Below are positions 137-35,474 of a stretch of DNA of 35,552 bases, one piece after another (the stretch's first letter is position 1; each line of letters begins with the position of its first letter). Source of the stretch: a virus; IMG/VR virus record IMGVR_UViG_3300035670_000733, positions 1 to 35,552 of that record; one strand, given 5' to 3'. The notes beneath the pieces are model-generated. The model saw nothing but the letters and a program-made list of their open reading frames with translations. It was not told the DNA's origin and did no database searches. The position numbers and the translations under genes were made by a program.

Positions 137-294
137 GCCTAAGACTGTACGGCGTGCTACGGCTGGCGGCACGCATTGAGGAACTTAGGAAAGATGGACA
201 CACCATCGTGACGCAAACGGTGCGTGTTGGAAAGAAAGAAATCGCACGTTATTCATTAGTTAAGGAGAAGCAACATGGATCGACCAGACATTGA
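88..294 (+). CDS. Small winged-helix/HTH DNA-binding protein
   Basis: A 68-residue protein. An HTH core lies at about residues 12-39 (ITALDSLRLYG, then LAARIEELRKDGH), followed by a short basic wing (VRVGKKEIARYSL, about 45-57). The layout matches small phage HTH proteins of the PF14090 type, known mainly from sequence. I chose the ATG at 88, preceded by AAGGGG at 73-78; the longer TTG reading from 31 overlaps the previous gene. It lies between the annealing protein and the SSB-like gene, so it may regulate or accompany the recombination block. Target unknown. Confidence 0.75.
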   Translation: MILDHLQQGDGITALDSLRLYGVLRLAARIEELRKDGHTIVTQTVRVGKKEIARYSLVKEKQHGSTRH

Positions 295-559
295 ACGCAA
301 GATGGGTACAGGGGTGCTACTGAGCAATCGTAACAAGAAGTCGCCTAGTAGCCCTGATTGGCGTGGTGAACTCAAAGTATCTGAACACTACGCACCGGGT
401 GACACTATCAAGCTGGCAGCATGGACTAAGGACACGAAAGGGGGTGCGCTAATTTCGATCAAAGAAGATACTTGGGTGCCGCCTGAGAGTACCGGCCCCG
501 GCAATGTCAACCCTTTCCCTAGCAAGCGGAAAGATGATGGTGATATCCCTTTTAATTAA
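275..559 (+). CDS. Possible single-stranded DNA-binding protein (SSB-like tail)
   Basis: A 94-residue protein starting at an ATG 8 bases after AAGGAG and overlapping the HTH gene by 20 bases. The middle (RGELKV, then DTIKLAAWTKDTKGGALISIK) reads as short beta strands, as in small OB-fold phage proteins. The C-terminus DDGDIPFN closely resembles the acidic tip of bacterial SSB, which recruits replication and repair partners. Its place after exonuclease and annealing genes fits a ssDNA role. The tip is seen directly; the OB fold is inferred. It could instead be an unrelated small beta protein. Confidence 0.55.
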   Translation: MDRPDIERKMGTGVLLSNRNKKSPSSPDWRGELKVSEHYAPGDTIKLAAWTKDTKGGALISIKEDTWVPPESTGPGNVNPFPSKRKDDGDIPFN

Positions 560-19657: not shown

Positions 19658-20668
19658 TTACAGGCTCAAAGAGTTGTAGCCCGTAATCTTCGTCATGGCT
19701 TTCGGCTTGGTGTTTACCAGTTCTGCAATCATCAGAACTGCACCAACGTAGCCAATCTGGAAGTTCGGAAGCGTGGACTCAAAGCCAGTGAAGGCGAACG
19801 ATGCCTGCTCATGGATGTAGAGCGAGAGATAGTTCGTGTTCAGCAGGTAGAGAGTACCTTCCGGGCAATACGGGTCTGGATAGATCGGCACACCGGCTAC
19901 CATCAAAGCGCGGAAAGCCGCCTGTGGGCCGTTGGCATCGCCATCAAAGCCTGAACCGGGAGTGATCATGTAGTTTTCTTGGCCTACATAATCTTGTGCC
20001 AGCAATGTCCAAGTACCAAAGCCGCAAACACCAAAAGTCGGCACTTCAGCGCCGTTTTTCACGGTACCGGAGATGTATTGCAGTACGTTTTGACGGGTCG
20101 GGTTGACCGAACCTGCCGCATACTGCTTCGACTTCCACCAAGTGTTTGAGCTACGGTTGATGTTGCCGTAGGTTGCAGTGCCAGTACCATCGTCAACCGC
20201 AGCCGGTAGGCCGATAAACTGCTGGTTGTTGCTGGTATTGGTGTACAGCGCGGTTGCCATCGAATCCATCATGACGTTAGTCGCGTCGTTCATACGCGCT
20301 TCGATCAGAGGGATGATTGCATAGTCTTGCTGAACTGCACCTTCCATACCGAGGAACGGTACAGGAGACACCAGCAGCTTCAGGTTAAATTCAGCTTGGT
20401 AAGCACCTTGCTGAACGGAAGGCTGTGCGAACGAACCGGAATAGTCCGACCACTGAGCATTCACGAATTGGGAACCCTGAACCGGAACCGAAACTGACGA
20501 CACACCGCCGGAGGCAGTCTGCGAGTTAGCAATCAGTGCCGCCATCAGGGGCGTCGAGTTGTAGATTTGTACGACCAACTTCGGGATAAATGCCCGACGA
20601 GTGACGTAGGTCAACTCGTTGTACTGATTAGTACCCGAAGCCGGAAGAATGCCGCCACCAATAGGCAT
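19658..20668 (-). CDS. Major capsid protein (HK97-fold type)
   Basis: A 336-residue protein directly after the scaffold gene. Segments such as FIPKLVVQIYNSTPLMAALI, ATNVMMDSMATALYTNTSNNQQFIGLPAAVDD, YMITPGSGFDGDANGPQAAFRALMVAGVPIYPDPYCPEGTLYLLNT and SFAFTGFESTLPNFQIGYVGAVL match HK97-fold major capsid proteins. The last third has the familiar P-domain/A-domain order with a C-terminal TKPKAMTKITG. GGAGGTAAATT gives one of the strongest sites in the late arm, as expected for the most abundant protein. Confidence 0.87.
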   Translation of the reverse strand: MPIGGGILPASGTNQYNELTYVTRRAFIPKLVVQIYNSTPLMAALIANSQTASGGVSSVSVPVQGSQFVNAQWSDYSGSFAQPSVQQGAYQAEFNLKLLVSPVPFLGMEGAVQQDYAIIPLIEARMNDATNVMMDSMATALYTNTSNNQQFIGLPAAVDDGTGTATYGNINRSSNTWWKSKQYAAGSVNPTRQNVLQYISGTVKNGAEVPTFGVCGFGTWTLLAQDYVGQENYMITPGSGFDGDANGPQAAFRALMVAGVPIYPDPYCPEGTLYLLNTNYLSLYIHEQASFAFTGFESTLPNFQIGYVGAVLMIAELVNTKPKAMTKITGYNSLSL

Positions 20669-27155: not shown

Positions 27156-27381
27156 TGTCAAAGCCCTCTAAGTTCCAATTAGCAATCCTGTACCGCGCCT
27201 CGTAGTCTTTAGCCACCGCCAATAACTCTCGCACAATCTCAGGGCGATACACCTCTTTCCACCTTGCTACCAACGCCCTCTTCTGTTTGGCATCCTGTGC
27301 GGCAATGGCATTCCTCATCTCATAGCGCAACATCTGGCGCGACAACAACAACTCCTCCTGATAGCGTTCAGGACTGTCCAT
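27127..27381 (-). CDS. Small basic helical protein (84 aa)
   Basis: An 84-residue charged helical protein (PERYQEELLLSRQMLRYEMRNAIAAQDAKQKRALVARWKEVYRPEIVRELL). I prefer the ATG at 27381, which overlaps the HTH gene by 14 bases; an ATG at 27435 after GGGGAT would extend it by 18 residues. No family recognised. Position between a regulator and the terminase block could fit a packaging accessory protein; this is inference. Confidence 0.5.
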   Translation of the reverse strand: MDSPERYQEELLLSRQMLRYEMRNAIAAQDAKQKRALVARWKEVYRPEIVRELLAVAKDYEARYRIANWNLEGFDNERRKTKKF

Positions 27382-27601
27382 CTGCCGCTTGCGCCAAAGC
27401 CTTGATCTCACGAATCTCCAATCCAAAGGCGTCATGTATCCCCAACATCAACTGCGCACTGACCGGCAAATGCCGATGCCGTACCCGACTGATATACCCA
27501 GACTGCACCTCCAACACACGCGCCAACTCCCGATCATTCTTTAACCCAAATGCAGCTATCAAATGATCCAACAAGGCGTGCGCCTTCTTTGCTTTCAACA
27601 T
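27368..27601 (-). CDS. XRE-type HTH regulator (77 aa)
   Basis: A 77-residue protein with a lambda-repressor-like HTH (FGLKNDRELARVLEVQSGYISRVRHRHLPVSAQLMLGIHDAFGL). The order of helices matches XRE regulators. It is third in the leftward operon, 480 bases from the TACAGT/ACTGTA dyad at 28096-28113. A repressor acting on that control region is plausible but not shown. The start follows GGGAGGGGCT with short spacing. Confidence 0.75.
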   Translation of the reverse strand: MLKAKKAHALLDHLIAAFGLKNDRELARVLEVQSGYISRVRHRHLPVSAQLMLGIHDAFGLEIREIKALAQAADGQS

Positions 27602-28190: not shown

Positions 28191-28502
28191 GATGAAATAG
28201 GGCGCGCAACCACGGAGGGTCAAACCCCATCGCGTTGCCACAAAGATAACAGACCAATCCCTATCGCCTGACCATGCCCGATAGGAATGACCTATGCCCT
28301 TGTCATGCTGTCAATTGCATGAATGGCACCGTTGACCCTTTGGTAATTGACCAATAGACAATGTTGCATGGTAAACAACCCCTCTACCCCTTGTTAATAA
28401 ATATACAAGGGAGCGAGGATTGACAATATATGCAAAGTTACCACTCCGACAATCCCTAATAGATTGCATATATCCCTATATACAAGCCAATAGAAAAATA
28501 TA

Positions 28503-28522
28503 TACCTATATATATATAGGTA
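28503..28522. promoter_or_regulatory. Perfect 20-bp AT palindrome
   Basis: TACCTATATATATATAGGTA at 28503-28522 reads the same on both strands. It lies four bases upstream of the -35 of the rightward promoter, so it could be an activator or repressor site or an easily melted element. Confidence 0.6.
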
Positions 28523-28526
28523 GGCC

Positions 28527-28555
28527 TTGAGTTAATACGCACACTCATCTATATT
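28527..28555 (+). promoter_or_regulatory. Rightward early promoter
   Basis: TTGAGT (28527-28532), a 17-base spacer, then TATATT (28550-28555, 5 of 6 consensus bases). Predicted start lies near 28562, giving a 42-base leader to the ATG at 28604. The flanking AT palindrome and start-site dyad support a regulated promoter for host sigma70. Confidence 0.6.
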
Positions 28556-28561
28556 TGAACC

Positions 28562-28578
28562 TATGCACTAAGTGCATA
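28562..28578. promoter_or_regulatory. Operator-like dyad at the early transcription start
   Basis: TATGCACT-A-AGTGCATA (28562-28578) is a perfect 8-1-8 inverted repeat. It covers the predicted +1 of the rightward promoter and ends 25 bases before the first ATG. A protein bound here would block transcription. Confidence 0.5.
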
Positions 28579-28877: not shown

Positions 28878-29768
28878 ATGAAAATCGACATTGCGCAGCA
28901 AATTACCGACCGCATCATTTCCGAACTCGAAAAGGGTGCAACGCCGTGGGTTAAACCGTGGCGTTATCTCAAGGGGCAGGCAGGTCAAGGGATGCCGTTC
29001 AATCCGGCTAGTGGTACGGTTTATCGCGGTATTAACCATTTCTGGCTGTCAATGCAACCCTTTGCAATCCCTTACTACGTCACGTTCAAACAAGCGCAAC
29101 AGCTTGGCGGTAGCGTCTTAGCAGATCAAAAGGGAACACCGGTTGTCTATTGGAATGTTCACCGGCGGGAAACAATCGGCGACAAGGGCGAATCGGTAAC
29201 TTCTGCCTATGCCTTCATCAAACATTACTATGTTTTCAACATTGAACAATGCTCTGGCATTGAACTGCCTGCTATGCCTGAAATTCCAGCAGTAGATTGG
29301 AACCCTTGCGAACAGGCCGATCAAATAGTTAATCGTTTGCAATTGTCCGGCGGTTTAACACACGCAGGTGATTCTGCCTATTACAGGCCTAGCACTGACG
29401 CCATTGTGATGCCGCCGCAAGCGGCATTTGATACCCGTGAAAATTATTATGCAACTTTGCTACATGAAAGCGTACACGCTTCAGGCCATGAAAAGCGATT
29501 AAAGCGAATCACGCCTGCCAGATTCGGCAGCGAAAATTATGCTTTTGAGGAGCTAGTAGCAGAATTGGGTGCTGCCATGCTTTGCGCTAAGTGCGGAATC
29601 GACGGTGACTTGCGCCATGCTGGCTACATTGAAAATTGGCTACAGGCTTTGCGGAATGACAAAAAATTCATTCTCTCAGCAGCAGCTAAAGCACAAAACG
29701 CACTGGATTATCTGACTGGTAGCCAAGCGGATGAACATGGCGAGATTACCGAAGCAATAGCGGCATAA
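28878..29768 (+). CDS. ardC: ArdC-like antirestriction protein
   Basis: A 296-residue protein. The N-terminal domain (AQQITDRIISELEKGATPWVKPW at 6-28, GTVYRGINHFWL, and KQAQQLGGSV) is the ssDNA-binding DUF1738/ArdC-N type. The C-terminal zincin domain has HESVH at 196-200 (HExxH), GHEKRL after it, and the downstream EELVAE helix (224-229) with the likely third ligand. ArdC proteins protect incoming DNA from restriction enzymes; the metal site is intact. Placement as second gene of the early arm fits entry-stage defence. A GGGGCTAATC leader precedes it. Confidence 0.88.
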   Translation: MKIDIAQQITDRIISELEKGATPWVKPWRYLKGQAGQGMPFNPASGTVYRGINHFWLSMQPFAIPYYVTFKQAQQLGGSVLADQKGTPVVYWNVHRRETIGDKGESVTSAYAFIKHYYVFNIEQCSGIELPAMPEIPAVDWNPCEQADQIVNRLQLSGGLTHAGDSAYYRPSTDAIVMPPQAAFDTRENYYATLLHESVHASGHEKRLKRITPARFGSENYAFEELVAELGAAMLCAKCGIDGDLRHAGYIENWLQALRNDKKFILSAAAKAQNALDYLTGSQADEHGEITEAIAA

Positions 29769-30744: not shown

Positions 30745-30948
30745 ATGCGATTAACCGGCGATAGAAATCAATGTCAAGGTTGCAAACAATACTTCAATTC
30801 CACTTTTGCTTTTGATAAGCATCGAACCGGCGAATTCGGCGTAAACCGCCGATGCCTTAGTAATGACGAAATGACAAGCAAAGGCATGGCGCAAAATACT
30901 TCCGGCTTTTGGATTAGCTCGCCAATGCCATTTCTAGGTCAACGGTAA
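30745..30948 (+). CDS. Small zinc-finger protein (67 aa)
   Basis: A 67-residue protein with CQGCKQYFNSTFAFDKHRTGEFG and NRRCLS: two CxxC cysteines, a His and a later Cys that would bind one zinc. A GFWISS segment is near the C-terminus. Similar proteins occur in many phages of Gram-negative hosts; no function is established. It lies between the terminator and the origin, so it could act at the origin. ACGGAG precedes the ATG. Confidence 0.7.
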   Translation: MRLTGDRNQCQGCKQYFNSTFAFDKHRTGEFGVNRRCLSNDEMTSKGMAQNTSGFWISSPMPFLGQR

Positions 30949-31164
30949 ACGAAAATTAGACGACTTCCCCAAAATCTCAATTCCGTTTTCATCCAATGCG
31001 GAAAACCGCCCAAAACCGCTTTGAACCCTTTTGCTGCCAGCCGCAGATGCAAAACCCATTCGTAGCTAGTTTGGCAACAAACGCAGGTTCATTCCTTTGA
31101 CATTTGAATCCTCAAAAAAAATCGGAAATGCCCCTACTGTGTTCGCGGGATCACGCTCCTATAG

Positions 31165-31455
31165 CTATACGTTTTCTATAGTTGAAGAAACCGTAGATCA
31201 TAGAAACCGTATAGTCTTAGTAAACGACTTTTCCTACATGTTTTGAGAGATAGATGTTTTAACAACTGACCCACGTAGATCAATATTCCAATAACCCCTA
31301 TAGCTATAGTTACCGTATAGCTATAGTAACCGTATATATATAGGAAACGTATAGCTATACGTTTACTTAGACTATAGTAAACGTATAGATATATTTATAT
31401 AGGTGTTCTACTTGCCAAAAAGAAAGTACGTTACTTATCCCCAGACTTATCCACA
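31165..31455. other. Putative replication origin: 17-bp iterons, AT-rich stretch, DnaA boxes
   Basis: Seven clear copies of a 17-bp element near CTATAGTAAMCGTATAG occur here. Two are at 31165-31181 (inverted) and 31198-31214. Five are end to end at 31304-31388, the fourth of them inverted. An AT-rich stretch (31389-31401) follows. Then come TTATCCCCA (31435-31443, one base off) and TTATCCACA (31447-31455, a perfect DnaA box). Iterons, AT-rich DNA and DnaA boxes are the standard parts of theta origins. No Rep gene is evident. Confidence 0.75.
31304..31388 (+). repeat. Five contiguous 17-bp repeats
   Basis: Units at 31304, 31321, 31338, 31355 (inverted) and 31372, each 17 bases with no gaps. 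Each has CTATA and TATAG ends as an inverted pair around a variable centre. No unique spacers separate them, so it is not a CRISPR. The spacing of 17 bp is not a whole number of helical turns. Confidence 0.85.
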
Positions 31456-31493
31456 GGGTCAAATGCCTTTCAATCTATCTCTCAAAATAGTTG

Positions 31494-31522
31494 TTGACTT
31501 TGTGTATTCTGTGAACTATTGT
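31494..31522 (+). promoter_or_regulatory. Promoter of the second early operon
   Basis: TTGACT (31494-31499, 5 of 6), a 17-base spacer and TATTGT (31517-31522, 4 of 6) lie 49 bases before the ATG at 31571. A short inverted repeat, TGTGC-TGAT-GCACA (31528-31541), covers the predicted start. It would drive genes from 31571 across the join toward 2872. Confidence 0.55.
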
Positions 31523-31570
31523 GTGCGTGTGCTGATGCACATTATCCGTTTCCTAATTAGGGAGGTTCAC

Positions 31571-31756
31571 ATGATTTACACCCTTCAGGATCATTTCGAT
31601 CCTCGTCAAGACACAGACCTAATCGACCGTATTCGCTTGCAAGAAGCTGCTGCACAAGCTGCTTTAGACCGTGCTAAAGAGTCCGTTCGTCACTTGTCTG
31701 CCTCTGTTCTTCGCTTGAAAGAGCGCCGTTTCCAATTGATAGAACTAGACGCCTAA
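31571..31756 (+). CDS. Coiled-coil early protein (61 aa)
   Basis: A 61-residue protein with a long helix (TDLIDRIRLQEAAAQAALDRAKESVRHLSASVLRLKERRFQLIEL), probably a coiled coil. GGGAGG precedes the ATG; a longer GTG reading from 31403 would cross the origin and is rejected. First gene after the origin, so an origin-linked role is possible. No family recognised. Confidence 0.62.
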   Translation: MIYTLQDHFDPRQDTDLIDRIRLQEAAAQAALDRAKESVRHLSASVLRLKERRFQLIELDA

Positions 31757-31786
31757 TCCGTACTTTATCCATTTAGGGGCTTATCC

Positions 31787-32074
31787 ATGACTTACACCAA
31801 AGAGCAATGGCGCTTTAATGACAACTCGCGCCATTGGAAAACACATCCCTTTTCTGTTACTTGCAGGAAAACTGGCGTATCTAGCGCAACCATCGCCAAC
31901 ATTCCAGCTAGAGCCACTATTTCACTAGAGGAACAAAAAGCCAACGCAAGACTCATTGCTGCTGCGCCTGAGCTTTTGGGGGCATTGATGATGTTAGACA
32001 AACGTGGAGGACTTGGGCCTCAAACCCATAAATACATACGCTCAATTATTGCGAAAGCCACGGGAGAACACTAA
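31787..32074 (+). CDS. Hypothetical protein (95 aa)
   Basis: A 95-residue protein. The C-terminal half has EEQKANARLIAAAPELLGALMML, a motif seen in many small phage proteins without assigned role, and an earlier part HWKTHPFSVTCRKTG. A GGGGCTTATCC leader precedes the ATG. One base overlaps the next start (TAATG). Confidence 0.62.
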   Translation: MTYTKEQWRFNDNSRHWKTHPFSVTCRKTGVSSATIANIPARATISLEEQKANARLIAAAPELLGALMMLDKRGGLGPQTHKYIRSIIAKATGEH

Positions 32075-32349
32075 TGACTTATCTAAAAGACATCAAACTG
32101 TGTGTTGATTGCTACTTCTATGGCAATGAACATGGTCAGAAAGACCGTTGCATCAATCCTGTTACCACTGAGTACAGCCTAGTTACTGGCAAGGAAGAAT
32201 ACCCATTTGCCTTCTCTCAACGCCAGTCCTACAGGGATGGTGACTGTGGGCCTAAAGCCATTTGGTTTGTCCTGCAAGCTGATAACCAGATCGCCAGAGA
32301 GAAAGCCAGACAAGAGTTCGAGGAGGCCATGCGTGATAGCCCCTTCTGA
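32074..32349 (+). CDS. Small zinc-ribbon-like protein (91 aa)
   Basis: A 91-residue protein: CVDCYFYG, KDRCINP and YRDGDCGPKAIWF give four cysteines in zinc-ribbon-like spacing, followed by a charged helix (NQIAREKARQEFEEAM). Known only as conserved small phage proteins. Coupled to both neighbours; the next gene starts inside its end. Confidence 0.65.
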   Translation: MTYLKDIKLCVDCYFYGNEHGQKDRCINPVTTEYSLVTGKEEYPFAFSQRQSYRDGDCGPKAIWFVLQADNQIAREKARQEFEEAMRDSPF

Positions 32350-33523: not shown

Positions 33524-34417
33524 ATGAGTGACTTTTCACCCGAAGTGCGTAATAACGCACTATGGTCTAACGATGCACGCCGTTTCGTTGAAGGCAGAAG
33601 CGGTGAGGTTTACGCTGAGAAGATCGGCGTTAAACCGTTAGATGACTTATCCGCTGTCGAAGCTGTGCAAATGGGTTTGGTAATGCAGGAACCCATCATG
33701 CGCGAGTTTGCACGCAGACAACGCATCAATTTCAAAGATGCTGACTACGCTCTCTATCATCCGCAACATAGCTTTCTTGCCAGCCACTTTGATTACATTT
33801 CAGAAGATGGGCAGACACTCTATGAGGTCAAGAATCTAGGTATCCACCAGCGTAAGAAGTATGGCGACGATGGCACAACTGACGTTGACACAGGCTACCG
33901 TGTTCAATGCTTGCATGAATCCTTAGTCCACCGTATCCCTAACGTGGTCTTAGTGGTCTGCTTTGGCGGTCAGGAAATCTGCCACTACCCGCAGCACTTT
34001 TCAGAAGAGCAATGGGATTTACACGCCAGAGAGATGGCACAGTTTTGGGGCAGGATTAAGGCTAGGAACTTTGATCCTGTAACGATGGGTGACGCTGCCA
34101 AGATTGTGTACAAGCAAGACAATGGCAACAGCCTGTTAGCCAATCAGGAACTAGAGCAAATCTGCGAGATGCTGAAGATTGTCAAAGAACAGCGCAAGGC
34201 ACTGGAAGCGCAAGAAGATGCCCTAGCTGCCAAAGTGCAAGGCTACATGATGGATGCCAGTCAACTAGCTACCTATGACGGGCGAATCCTAGCCACTTGG
34301 AAGGCCAGCAAGCCTACCAAATCCTTTTCCAAAGACTTGTTCAGGAACGCCATGCCAGAGATGTATGACAAGTTTGTGGTTGAACAACCGGGTTCCCGCC
34401 GATTCCTTTTGAAATAG
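33524..34417 (+). CDS. YqaJ-type recombination exonuclease
   Basis: A 297-residue protein with lambda-exonuclease-fold motifs: GLVMQEP with E56, HFDYI with D90, EVKN with E101 and K103, and the helix YRVQCLHE with Q128. YqaJ enzymes degrade one strand of double-stranded ends and load an annealing protein, which is encoded two genes downstream. The C-terminal third is a coiled coil (LEQICEMLKIVKEQRKALEAQEDALAAKV) and RFLLK end, as in family members. It likely generates 3' overhangs for replication and packaging. Confidence 0.82.
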   Translation: MSDFSPEVRNNALWSNDARRFVEGRSGEVYAEKIGVKPLDDLSAVEAVQMGLVMQEPIMREFARRQRINFKDADYALYHPQHSFLASHFDYISEDGQTLYEVKNLGIHQRKKYGDDGTTDVDTGYRVQCLHESLVHRIPNVVLVVCFGGQEICHYPQHFSEEQWDLHAREMAQFWGRIKARNFDPVTMGDAAKIVYKQDNGNSLLANQELEQICEMLKIVKEQRKALEAQEDALAAKVQGYMMDASQLATYDGRILATWKASKPTKSFSKDLFRNAMPEMYDKFVVEQPGSRRFLLK

Positions 34418-34426
34418 GAGATAAAA

Positions 34427-34636
34427 ATGAATAACGAACCAGCGTTTCCACAAGAAAGAATGTTGCCGGATGGCAGTCATCAAGAGTGCGAAGGGTTGTC
34501 AGTGCGCGATTACTTTGCGGCTAAAGCAATGCAAGGTTTATTAGCTTCAGACACATTCGCACCCGTTTCTGAGTTTGTCAGAAGGGCATACGAGATAGCA
34601 GATGCCATGATGGAAGAAAGGATTAACCATGAGTAA
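34427..34636 (+). CDS. Small conserved phage protein (69 aa)
   Basis: A 69-residue protein: GLSVRDYFAAKAMQGLLASDTF and AYEIADAMMEERI. The GLSxRDYFAAKAMQGLLA block is common in small phage proteins without a role. It lies between exonuclease and annealing protein and shares eight bases with the latter. AGGAG precedes the ATG. Confidence 0.65.
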   Translation: MNNEPAFPQERMLPDGSHQECEGLSVRDYFAAKAMQGLLASDTFAPVSEFVRRAYEIADAMMEERINHE

Positions 34637-35474
34637 CGTAGTCAACATGGCAGGGGAGTCGGCAGTTGTCGCACTTGATCCTGCTATCCAATCATCCATT
34701 GTGTTGCGTGGTGACTTATCAGGATTGAACGAACAGCAGAAGCAGGACTACTACCTGTACCGCTGCCGCCAAGTCGGTCTTGATCCAGCCGCTAAACCCT
34801 TTGACTTGCTAACACTCAATGGAAAACAAATCCTTTACGCGAACGCAGGAGCTACTCAACAGCTATGTGCGCTCCACAAGCTATCCACTCAGATTACGCA
34901 TCGGGAACGTGTGGATGGAATTTACATTGTCTCCGTCCGATGCACGGGCGCTGACGGAAGAGTTTCAGAAAATCAAGGCGCAGTGGATGTTTCAACCCTT
35001 GTCGGCGAAAGACTGGCTAATGCCATCCTTAAAGCGACTACGAAAGCAATACGGCGGTCGGTTCTTGCGCATTGTGGACTCGGAATGCTTGATGAAACTG
35101 AAGTTGAAACCATCCCAGAAGCGCGTACAGCTCCGATAGTGGCACCACAACCAGTGACACCTATCGAAGTACCTGCACCACCACCAAAGTTGACAATAGG
35201 TGTTGCTTTCATGGTGCCGGGTAAGACTGAACCCTATGCCTACCATGCCAACGATGATGAGTTTGTCAACGGCTACTTGGAAATGGTCACAAGCATCATG
35301 GCAAGCGCTAAGCTGAACGCTGCCGAGAAGCTGTCAAAGATTACAGCATTAGAAAGTGCCAATGACTTTGTGCTTGGCATGATTGAAGCTGATAAGCCAG
35401 TGTTGTTCGAGGTATGGACAAGAGGCGTTAAAGAGGCAAAGGAGGCTTGCGATCAGCAGATAAAAAAGGGTTGA
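34629..35474 (+). CDS. Probable single-strand annealing recombinase (281 aa)
   Basis: A 281-residue protein. Residues about 30-160 carry LNEQQKQDYYLYRCRQVGLDPAAKPFDLLTLNGKQILYANAGATQQLCALHKLS and ANAILKATTKAIRRSVLAHCGLGMLDETEVE, an order found in phage recombination proteins near YqaJ-type exonucleases. A proline-rich linker (about 165-195) and a helical tail follow. It would anneal complementary ssDNA made by the exonuclease. The annealing role is inferred from neighbours and resemblance. The gene ends at the contig join (positions 1-58 repeat its end). Confidence 0.62.
   Translation: MSNVVNMAGESAVVALDPAIQSSIVLRGDLSGLNEQQKQDYYLYRCRQVGLDPAAKPFDLLTLNGKQILYANAGATQQLCALHKLSTQITHRERVDGIYIVSVRCTGADGRVSENQGAVDVSTLVGERLANAILKATTKAIRRSVLAHCGLGMLDETEVETIPEARTAPIVAPQPVTPIEVPAPPPKLTIGVAFMVPGKTEPYAYHANDDEFVNGYLEMVTSIMASAKLNAAEKLSKITALESANDFVLGMIEADKPVLFEVWTRGVKEAKEACDQQIKKG

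Follow-up and report, generated by a model that had tools for sequence, protein, structure and literature searches.

Iteron-type plasmid origins (P1 oriR, F, RK2 oriV and pSC101) are built from iterons, AT-rich DNA and a few adjoining DnaA boxes. The origins of P1, F, RK2 and pSC101 are described as carrying DnaA sites, and the plasmid Rep protein acts there together with DnaA (PMC4980987). A similar arrangement is found in the phage DNA analysed here (a stretch of 35,552 nucleotides, referred to as the window), where AT-rich DNA of low computed stability and DnaA boxes adjoin a set of iterons. The phage locus differs from the iteron plasmid origins in two respects: no Rep_3 gene was found in the window or in 18 relatives, and distant phage relatives keep the boxes while losing the iterons.

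Set against a bacterial oriC, two DnaA boxes are few. The locus resembles oriC in having a tandem DnaA-box cluster beside the least stable DNA, with no other initiator recognised, and the conservation of the cluster between relatives (28/35 intervals) is also a trait of the oriC type. It is unlike oriC in that the phage has only 2–4 clustered boxes, that its record holds no DnaA domain IV gene, and that the DNA of lowest stability is situated 5' of the boxes. A DnaA-trio (as defined in PMC7561715) of at least four was found on the 3' side of none of 37 box clusters, the longest run in the window being 1, so the locus is not a standard oriC unwinding module.

With the origin of phage lambda, which contains the O iterons, the locus shares direct repeats and AT-rich DNA within an early operon. 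Lambda is copied by host DnaB and Pol III. In contrast to lambda, no O/P-type gene pair was recognised, the repeats are noncoding, and the DnaA boxes are the conserved part. The lytic origin of phage P1, within repL, has two predicted DnaA sites beside AT-rich DNA, and mutation of these predicted sites left RepL-driven copying unaffected (PMC9948254). DnaA boxes alone thus do not prove that they are used. The P1 lytic origin further differs in needing RepL, and no RepL-like gene was recognised here with Pfam or PHROGs. For Pseudomonas phage PseuGes_254, an origin was proposed by Ori-Finder in an AT-rich region with DnaA boxes; unlike the present phage, PseuGes_254 encodes a primase and a DNA polymerase A, and in the part of the report considered here the prediction concerns that genome alone, with no test across relatives (PMC11512268). 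Among the matches listed from the openly licensed PMC literature (titles and the beginnings of abstracts), there was no tailed phage shown or proposed to start replication from host DnaA alone.

The first 136 bases of the 35,552-base source record are the same as the last 136 apart from two mismatches, and the genome map is therefore very probably circular, at about 35.4 kb. The minus strand carries the late genes (portal, capsid, terminase), with portal and capsid matching the SU10 portal family and a major head protein family, respectively, and the plus strand carries an early block that runs from 28604 round to 2872. The closest named records found are two uncultured Manatee Spring phages (portal identity 63–64%). 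Scans of the window with Rfam and for tRNAs gave no matches. The earlier note on this DNA had raised the idea of a phage-plasmid, for which we find no support: the terminase matched just 2 of 72,556 plasmids, both remotely (21–22% identity), and neither a Rep nor a Par family was found among 62 gene models.

Two observations concern the capsid. The major capsid protein (19658–20668) is 97–100% identical in all eight relatives' records, while other genes have widely diverged. Matches to it also occur in contigs assigned to a Balneolaceae MAG and to an alphaproteobacterial MAG (L225 and L226, close relatives of the phage), and these contigs may be misbinned phage.

The region at issue lies in the early block, between an ArdC-like gene and an exonuclease gene. 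Its elements are as follows.

31159 to 31226, both orientations: outlying copies of the 17-bp unit, inverted at 31170–31186 and direct at 31210–31226
31241 to 31255, plus strand: left arm of a perfect 15-bp inverted repeat, the pair enclosing array and boxes
31299 to 31393, plus strand: 17-bp tandem array, consensus TATAGCTATAGTAAACG, direct units with one inverted unit (TRF)
31355 to 31388, plus strand: hairpin inside the array, formed by an inverted and a direct unit, 13 pairs, terminator-like by pattern
31389 to 31402, plus strand: AT-rich patch in the gap between array and boxes (from the sequence)
31435 to 31443, plus strand: DnaA box TTATCCCCA, one mismatch (box scan)
31447 to 31455, plus strand: perfect DnaA box TTATCCACA (box scan)
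31473 to 31487, minus strand: right arm of the perfect 15-bp inverted repeat, ending 6 bp 5' of the -35 hexamer
31494 to 31522, plus strand: sigma-70-like promoter TTGACT-17-TATTGT (pattern match)
31528 to 31541, no strand assigned: palindrome TGTGC-TGAT-GCACA near the presumed transcription start (by eye)

The two DnaA boxes at 31435 and 31447 lie on the same strand with a spacing of 12 bp, as the earlier note had reported, and the one at 31447 is the sole perfect TTATCCACA box when both strands of the window are scanned. A comparable pair appeared in 0 of 1000 simulated windows. The array has a TRF score of 97, the highest among the window's 13 TRF rows; in simulated intergenic regions (Markov, n = 1000, same composition) the best score was 59 and none reached 97. 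Five 17-bp units had been described end to end at 31304–31388. The array is real, with direct units at 31304, 31321, 31338 and 31372, but the unit at 31355 largely matches the reverse complement, and it provides the first of the two hairpin arms (31355–31367 and 31376–31388). The two outlying copies placed at 31165 and 31198 likewise exist; the first is inverted, with its best register at 31170, and the second is direct, with its best register at 31210. The lowest computed duplex stability over any 100 bp of the window occurs in the array (z = -4.8). The second least stable 100 bp is found at 28457–28556, in the divergent gap 5' of the ArdC operon.

Further genes, and one palindrome outside the region, are listed here.

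28505 to 28520, no strand assigned: one palindrome resembling the repeat unit, CCTATATATATATAGG, within AT-rich DNA of the gap 5' of the ArdC operon (by eye)
28878 to 29768, plus strand: ArdC-like protein (ArdcN and metallopeptidase domains), the conserved upstream flank
31571 to 31756, plus strand: 61-aa coiled-coil protein, the first gene 3' of the boxes, kept in several clades
33524 to 34417, plus strand: RecE/YqaJ-like exonuclease, the conserved downstream flank
34629 to 35474, plus strand: probable RAD52-like single-strand annealing protein (structure model)
275 to 559, plus strand: weak match to a single-stranded-DNA-binding protein (profile match)
27368 to 27601, minus strand: CI-like helix-turn-helix protein of 77 aa, a weak candidate binder of the 17-bp repeats

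The comparison was built on loci related by their annealing protein, of which the best 80 of 239 were taken; further loci came from a box search and from a query with one distant exonuclease. Forty-two loci with ArdC upstream and the exonuclease downstream yielded 35 distinct intervals, the window counted, of which five (L131, L155, L193, L194 and L220) had come from the box-pattern search. Two exact same-strand copies of TTATCCACA not more than 30 bp apart are present in 26 of the 35 intervals, and in 28 when TTATCCCCA is counted as well; without the five box-found loci the figures are 21/30 and 23/30. The best of 300 permuted 9-mers reached 2/35 (mean 0.007) and the reverse complement 0. When one mismatch is allowed, the cluster is found in 31/35 intervals (26/30 without the box-found loci), the controls giving at most 1/35 (100 permuted 9-mers) and 0 (reverse complement). 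Even with one mismatch, the cluster is missing from four of the 35 intervals (L060, L064, L071 and MW202753.1). MW202753.1 and MW202825.1 are the two nearest named phages, and neither has a box cluster in the region examined: the exonuclease region read in MW202825.1 has one single one-mismatch box, and in MW202753.1 a pair of one-mismatch boxes with 12-bp spacing is situated elsewhere (27217 and 27229).

The spacing of the boxes is regular. In 36 distinct clusters, neighbouring boxes (not more than 30 bp apart) are separated by 12 bp in 36 cases, by 11 bp in 16, by 22 bp in three, by 21 bp in two and by 23 bp in one, so that all 58 spacings are 11–12 or 21–23 bp, i.e. one or two helical turns. 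In a few distant loci (L066, L080, L131) an extra box occurs 140–150 bp upstream, on the far side of the AT-rich stretch.

The whole viral collection was scanned with a 34-bp pattern made of three boxes spaced 11 and 12 bp, which matched 49 stretches. Homologues of the phage's proteins, or of three exonucleases and one ArdC that were added as queries from three relatives, were detected in 39 of these and were lacking in 10. In all 37 stretches that have an exonuclease, it is encoded on the same strand, 367–2487 bp downstream of the pattern. As the pattern was derived from members of the group, close relatives are certain to match it; the informative cases are distant ones such as L264 (ArdC 52%) and L257 (exonuclease 68%), each compared with its nearest query. 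With group proteins in 39 of 49 stretches, the cluster can be used to detect such phages at the DNA level. The looser 12-bp box pair occurs in at least 120 viral-contig stretches (L105–L224), and 92 of the 120 listed had no match to any phage protein at E 1e-3, so the pair by itself is not specific to this group. Fifty records with the 12-bp box pair were searched for a DnaA domain, and none had a match over the cut-off, with one weak match below it.

The 17-bp array shows a different distribution. At least 110 bp of upstream sequence is available for 33 of the 36 clusters (all except L037, L029 and L175), and in nine of the 33 (L140, L220, L229, L235, L080, L193, L178, L077, L147) TRF found no array with a period of 12–40. 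Unit-like words are scattered in L080 and L077 despite the missing TRF array, and in L131 the only TRF repeat is unrelated and located at the far end of the stretch. Array-less loci L178, L147 and L193, the exonucleases of which are 54–59% identical to the L155 protein, keep the boxes. Where repeats are present, the unit varies by clade, being TATAGCTATAGTAAACG in the window vs TACCTATATCCTTTGTTA (2.3 copies) in L067 and L068. L060 has an array of the window type, also with 17-bp units, upstream of ArdC and no DnaA box there. Array and boxes are thus separable, as array-less relatives keep the boxes and L060 has an array without them. The earlier note had asked whether related phages lack the array, and the answer is split: some have lost it and kept the boxes. 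Its proposal that an iteron-binding protein controls the origin finds no support as a general rule, given the distant array-less relatives with boxes and the box-less array of L060. In the sequences compared, the boxes, and not the iterons, are the conserved part of the region. We regard the 17-bp repeats as an addition made in individual clades; they are probably either the sites of a phage regulator or merely an easily melted tract. The 15-bp inverted repeat, compared by eye, is present in window-like relatives and absent from distant clades.

The low stability of the DNA beside the boxes recurs across the group. Averaged over the 36 clusters, the stability of 50-bp stretches has its minimum (54.4) in the stretch starting 75 bp before the first box, compared to a window-wide mean of 69.0 (sd 4.2). 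Of the eight relatives' records compared, seven have the box-adjacent stretch as one of their three least stable. In G010, which is without boxes, no stretch stands out in stability.

The 62 gene models, picked from the ORF list, were each scanned at least once against Pfam or PHROGs without a match to any polymerase, helicase, primase or Rep family, in agreement with what had been noted from the sequence. Whole-record profile searches, in which many records are perhaps fragments, found DnaB_C in 0/18 relatives (control 14/14 genomes) and, among 19 records including the window, no IstB/DnaC-like protein (control 13/14), no Rep_3 (2/14), no PolA (10/14) and no DnaA domain IV (10/14). An initiator of no known family could be hidden among the small proteins. 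To describe the phage as being without replication genes, as was done earlier, is however too strong, as a recombination set is present, consisting of the RecE-like exonuclease, the probable RAD52-like annealer, the weak SSB-like match and a resolvase-like nuclease. Sequence libraries gave no firm match for the annealing protein. Its AlphaFold model (mean pLDDT 73, pTM 0.50) has RAD52 chains as top Foldseek matches, with E-values of 1.4e-3 and above; because none is below 1e-3, we regard the RAD52-like assignment as probable.

Among the possible binders of the region put forward earlier were a 67-aa zinc protein and the 61-aa coiled-coil protein. The zinc protein matches phage families lacking an assigned function and has no homologue in 10 compared records, which makes it an unlikely binder. 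The coiled-coil protein is kept directly 3' of the boxes in relatives and matches no DNA-binding family. It was also considered as an initiator and rejected, being a conserved coiled coil only, with no family match and a best PDB profile E-value of 0.18.

We favour the interpretation that positions 31159–31522 are a phage replication origin which is opened by host DnaA, and consider this probable on the basis of the position of the region, the conservation and spacing of the boxes, the computed stability and the absence of a recognisable initiator. A host-driven origin had been suggested before, and the conserved DnaA-box cluster beside easily melted DNA, together with the lack of a recognisable phage initiator, argues for it. 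Host DnaA would bind the head-to-tail boxes at 31435 and 31447, the adjoining AT-rich array would then melt, and host DnaB, loaded by the host, would start theta replication with host Pol III. At a later stage, the exonuclease and the probable RAD52-like annealer, as their presence suggests, would make the concatemers for packaging. The sigma-70-like promoter beside the boxes would drive the early operon, so that binding of DnaA may also couple replication to early transcription. Tailed phages usually have at least an initiator or a helicase loader of their own. The parts of this locus are familiar, while the absence of a recognisable initiator and the centring of conservation on the boxes are not.

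Of the alternatives, one concerns only the array: the repeats, but not the boxes, might be operators for a phage repressor or activator. This is compatible both with an origin and with control of transcription by DnaA, and we consider it possible but rather doubtful. It would account for the repeat-like palindrome 5' of ArdC in the window (28505–28520) and for the 17-bp array that L060 carries before ArdC without DnaA boxes, but it leaves the DnaA boxes of the window unexplained, and the distance of about 100 bp from the end of the array to the -35 hexamer is large for a simple operator.

The main rival to an origin is control of the adjacent promoter by DnaA, with the boxes acting as a transcription switch through which host DnaA activates or represses the early promoter at 31494–31522, and with replication starting elsewhere or by means of an unrecognised phage initiator. 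The promoter and the gene for the 61-aa protein, the first one after it, are conserved next to the boxes in relatives, and 30 of 36 distinct clusters have a TTGAC not more than 141 bp 3' of their last box; the promoter pattern as such matched 5 times within 30900–31800, against 2.2 expected. We nevertheless judge such a switch unlikely as the sole function, as it explains neither why the most easily melted DNA adjoins the boxes nor why no initiator is recognised. A role as origin and DnaA control of the promoter may both be true at once.

It is quite unlikely that the region is an iteron origin of the plasmid type, at which the 17-bp repeats would be bound by an unrecognised phage Rep, host DnaA having only an auxiliary role, on the model of P1 oriR, F and RK2. 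The layout of iterons, AT-rich DNA and DnaA boxes is the expected one, the 17-bp period of the array, shared by the window with near relatives, falls within the roughly 17–22 bp of such iterons, and there is a weak candidate for the iteron binder, the 77-aa helix-turn-helix protein. Array-bearing loci have its gene wherever the sequence covers the site, whereas array-less ones such as L131, L226, L230, L232 and MW202753.1 lack it at that site. However, homologues occur elsewhere in array-less L229 and L235, and in L228, and G004 has kept the repeat unit of the window, yet the likely recognition helix of its protein differs (by eye). Further, Rep_3 was found in none of the 19 records, and L178, L147 and L193 have boxes without an array. 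An origin by chance or composition, as TATA-type repeats arise readily in AT-rich noncoding DNA, is extremely unlikely and can be considered refuted, since neither the array nor the box pair was reached in 1000 simulations each and the boxes are conserved in relatives against permuted controls.

Returning to an origin opened by host DnaA, this reading might be extended to a widespread lineage of uncultured tailed phages, which is possible but less likely than not: the lineage might lack a phage initiator, with host DnaA alone opening a minimal origin of two to four boxes, and the iterons, the coiled-coil protein and a mini beta clamp in a sister clade might be later additions or replacements. 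The clamp is a small beta-clamp-like protein of about 200–215 aa in the box-less clade L060/L064/L071 (1087–1734 in L064), with the beta-clamp central domain above the Pfam cut-off for L064 and matches to PDB clamps down to 1.5e-12. The presence of such a protein is suggestive of cooperation between the lineage and host Pol III. As box-bearing L178 also has such a protein (37% identity), the clamp is not strictly a replacement for the boxes. If the extended reading is true, the origin is a simple, minimal one, the copying of the phage is hostage to the DnaA activity and growth state of the host, and the box-less sister clade records a switch away from host DnaA.

GC skew, the use of which had been recommended earlier, lends no support to the origin. 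For the window, cumulative skew is lowest at 32232 (31968 after detrending), which is near the array, 0.5–0.9 kb from array and boxes, but the extremes in eight relatives' records fall away from the boxes, and the minimum of G004 and G006 falls close to the divergent gap 5' of ArdC, 2.3–2.6 kb from the boxes. We read the extremes of the relatives as following gene direction; the mean third-position skew has the same sign from ArdC to the exonuclease (34 loci). Skew was rejected as proof of an origin because the relatives do not share the minimum near the array.

A palindrome similar to that at 31528–31541 is found at 28564–28576 (TGCAC-TAA-GTGCA). Both are positioned directly 5' of the first genes of plus-strand operons, and TTTCCTAA comes after each; from their sequence and position, they are possible operators or hairpins in the 5' UTR. 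Another possible DNA-binding regulator, to judge from its HTH_39 assignment, is an 87-aa winged-helix protein (31–294), the gene of which directly follows the annealing gene on the circular map.
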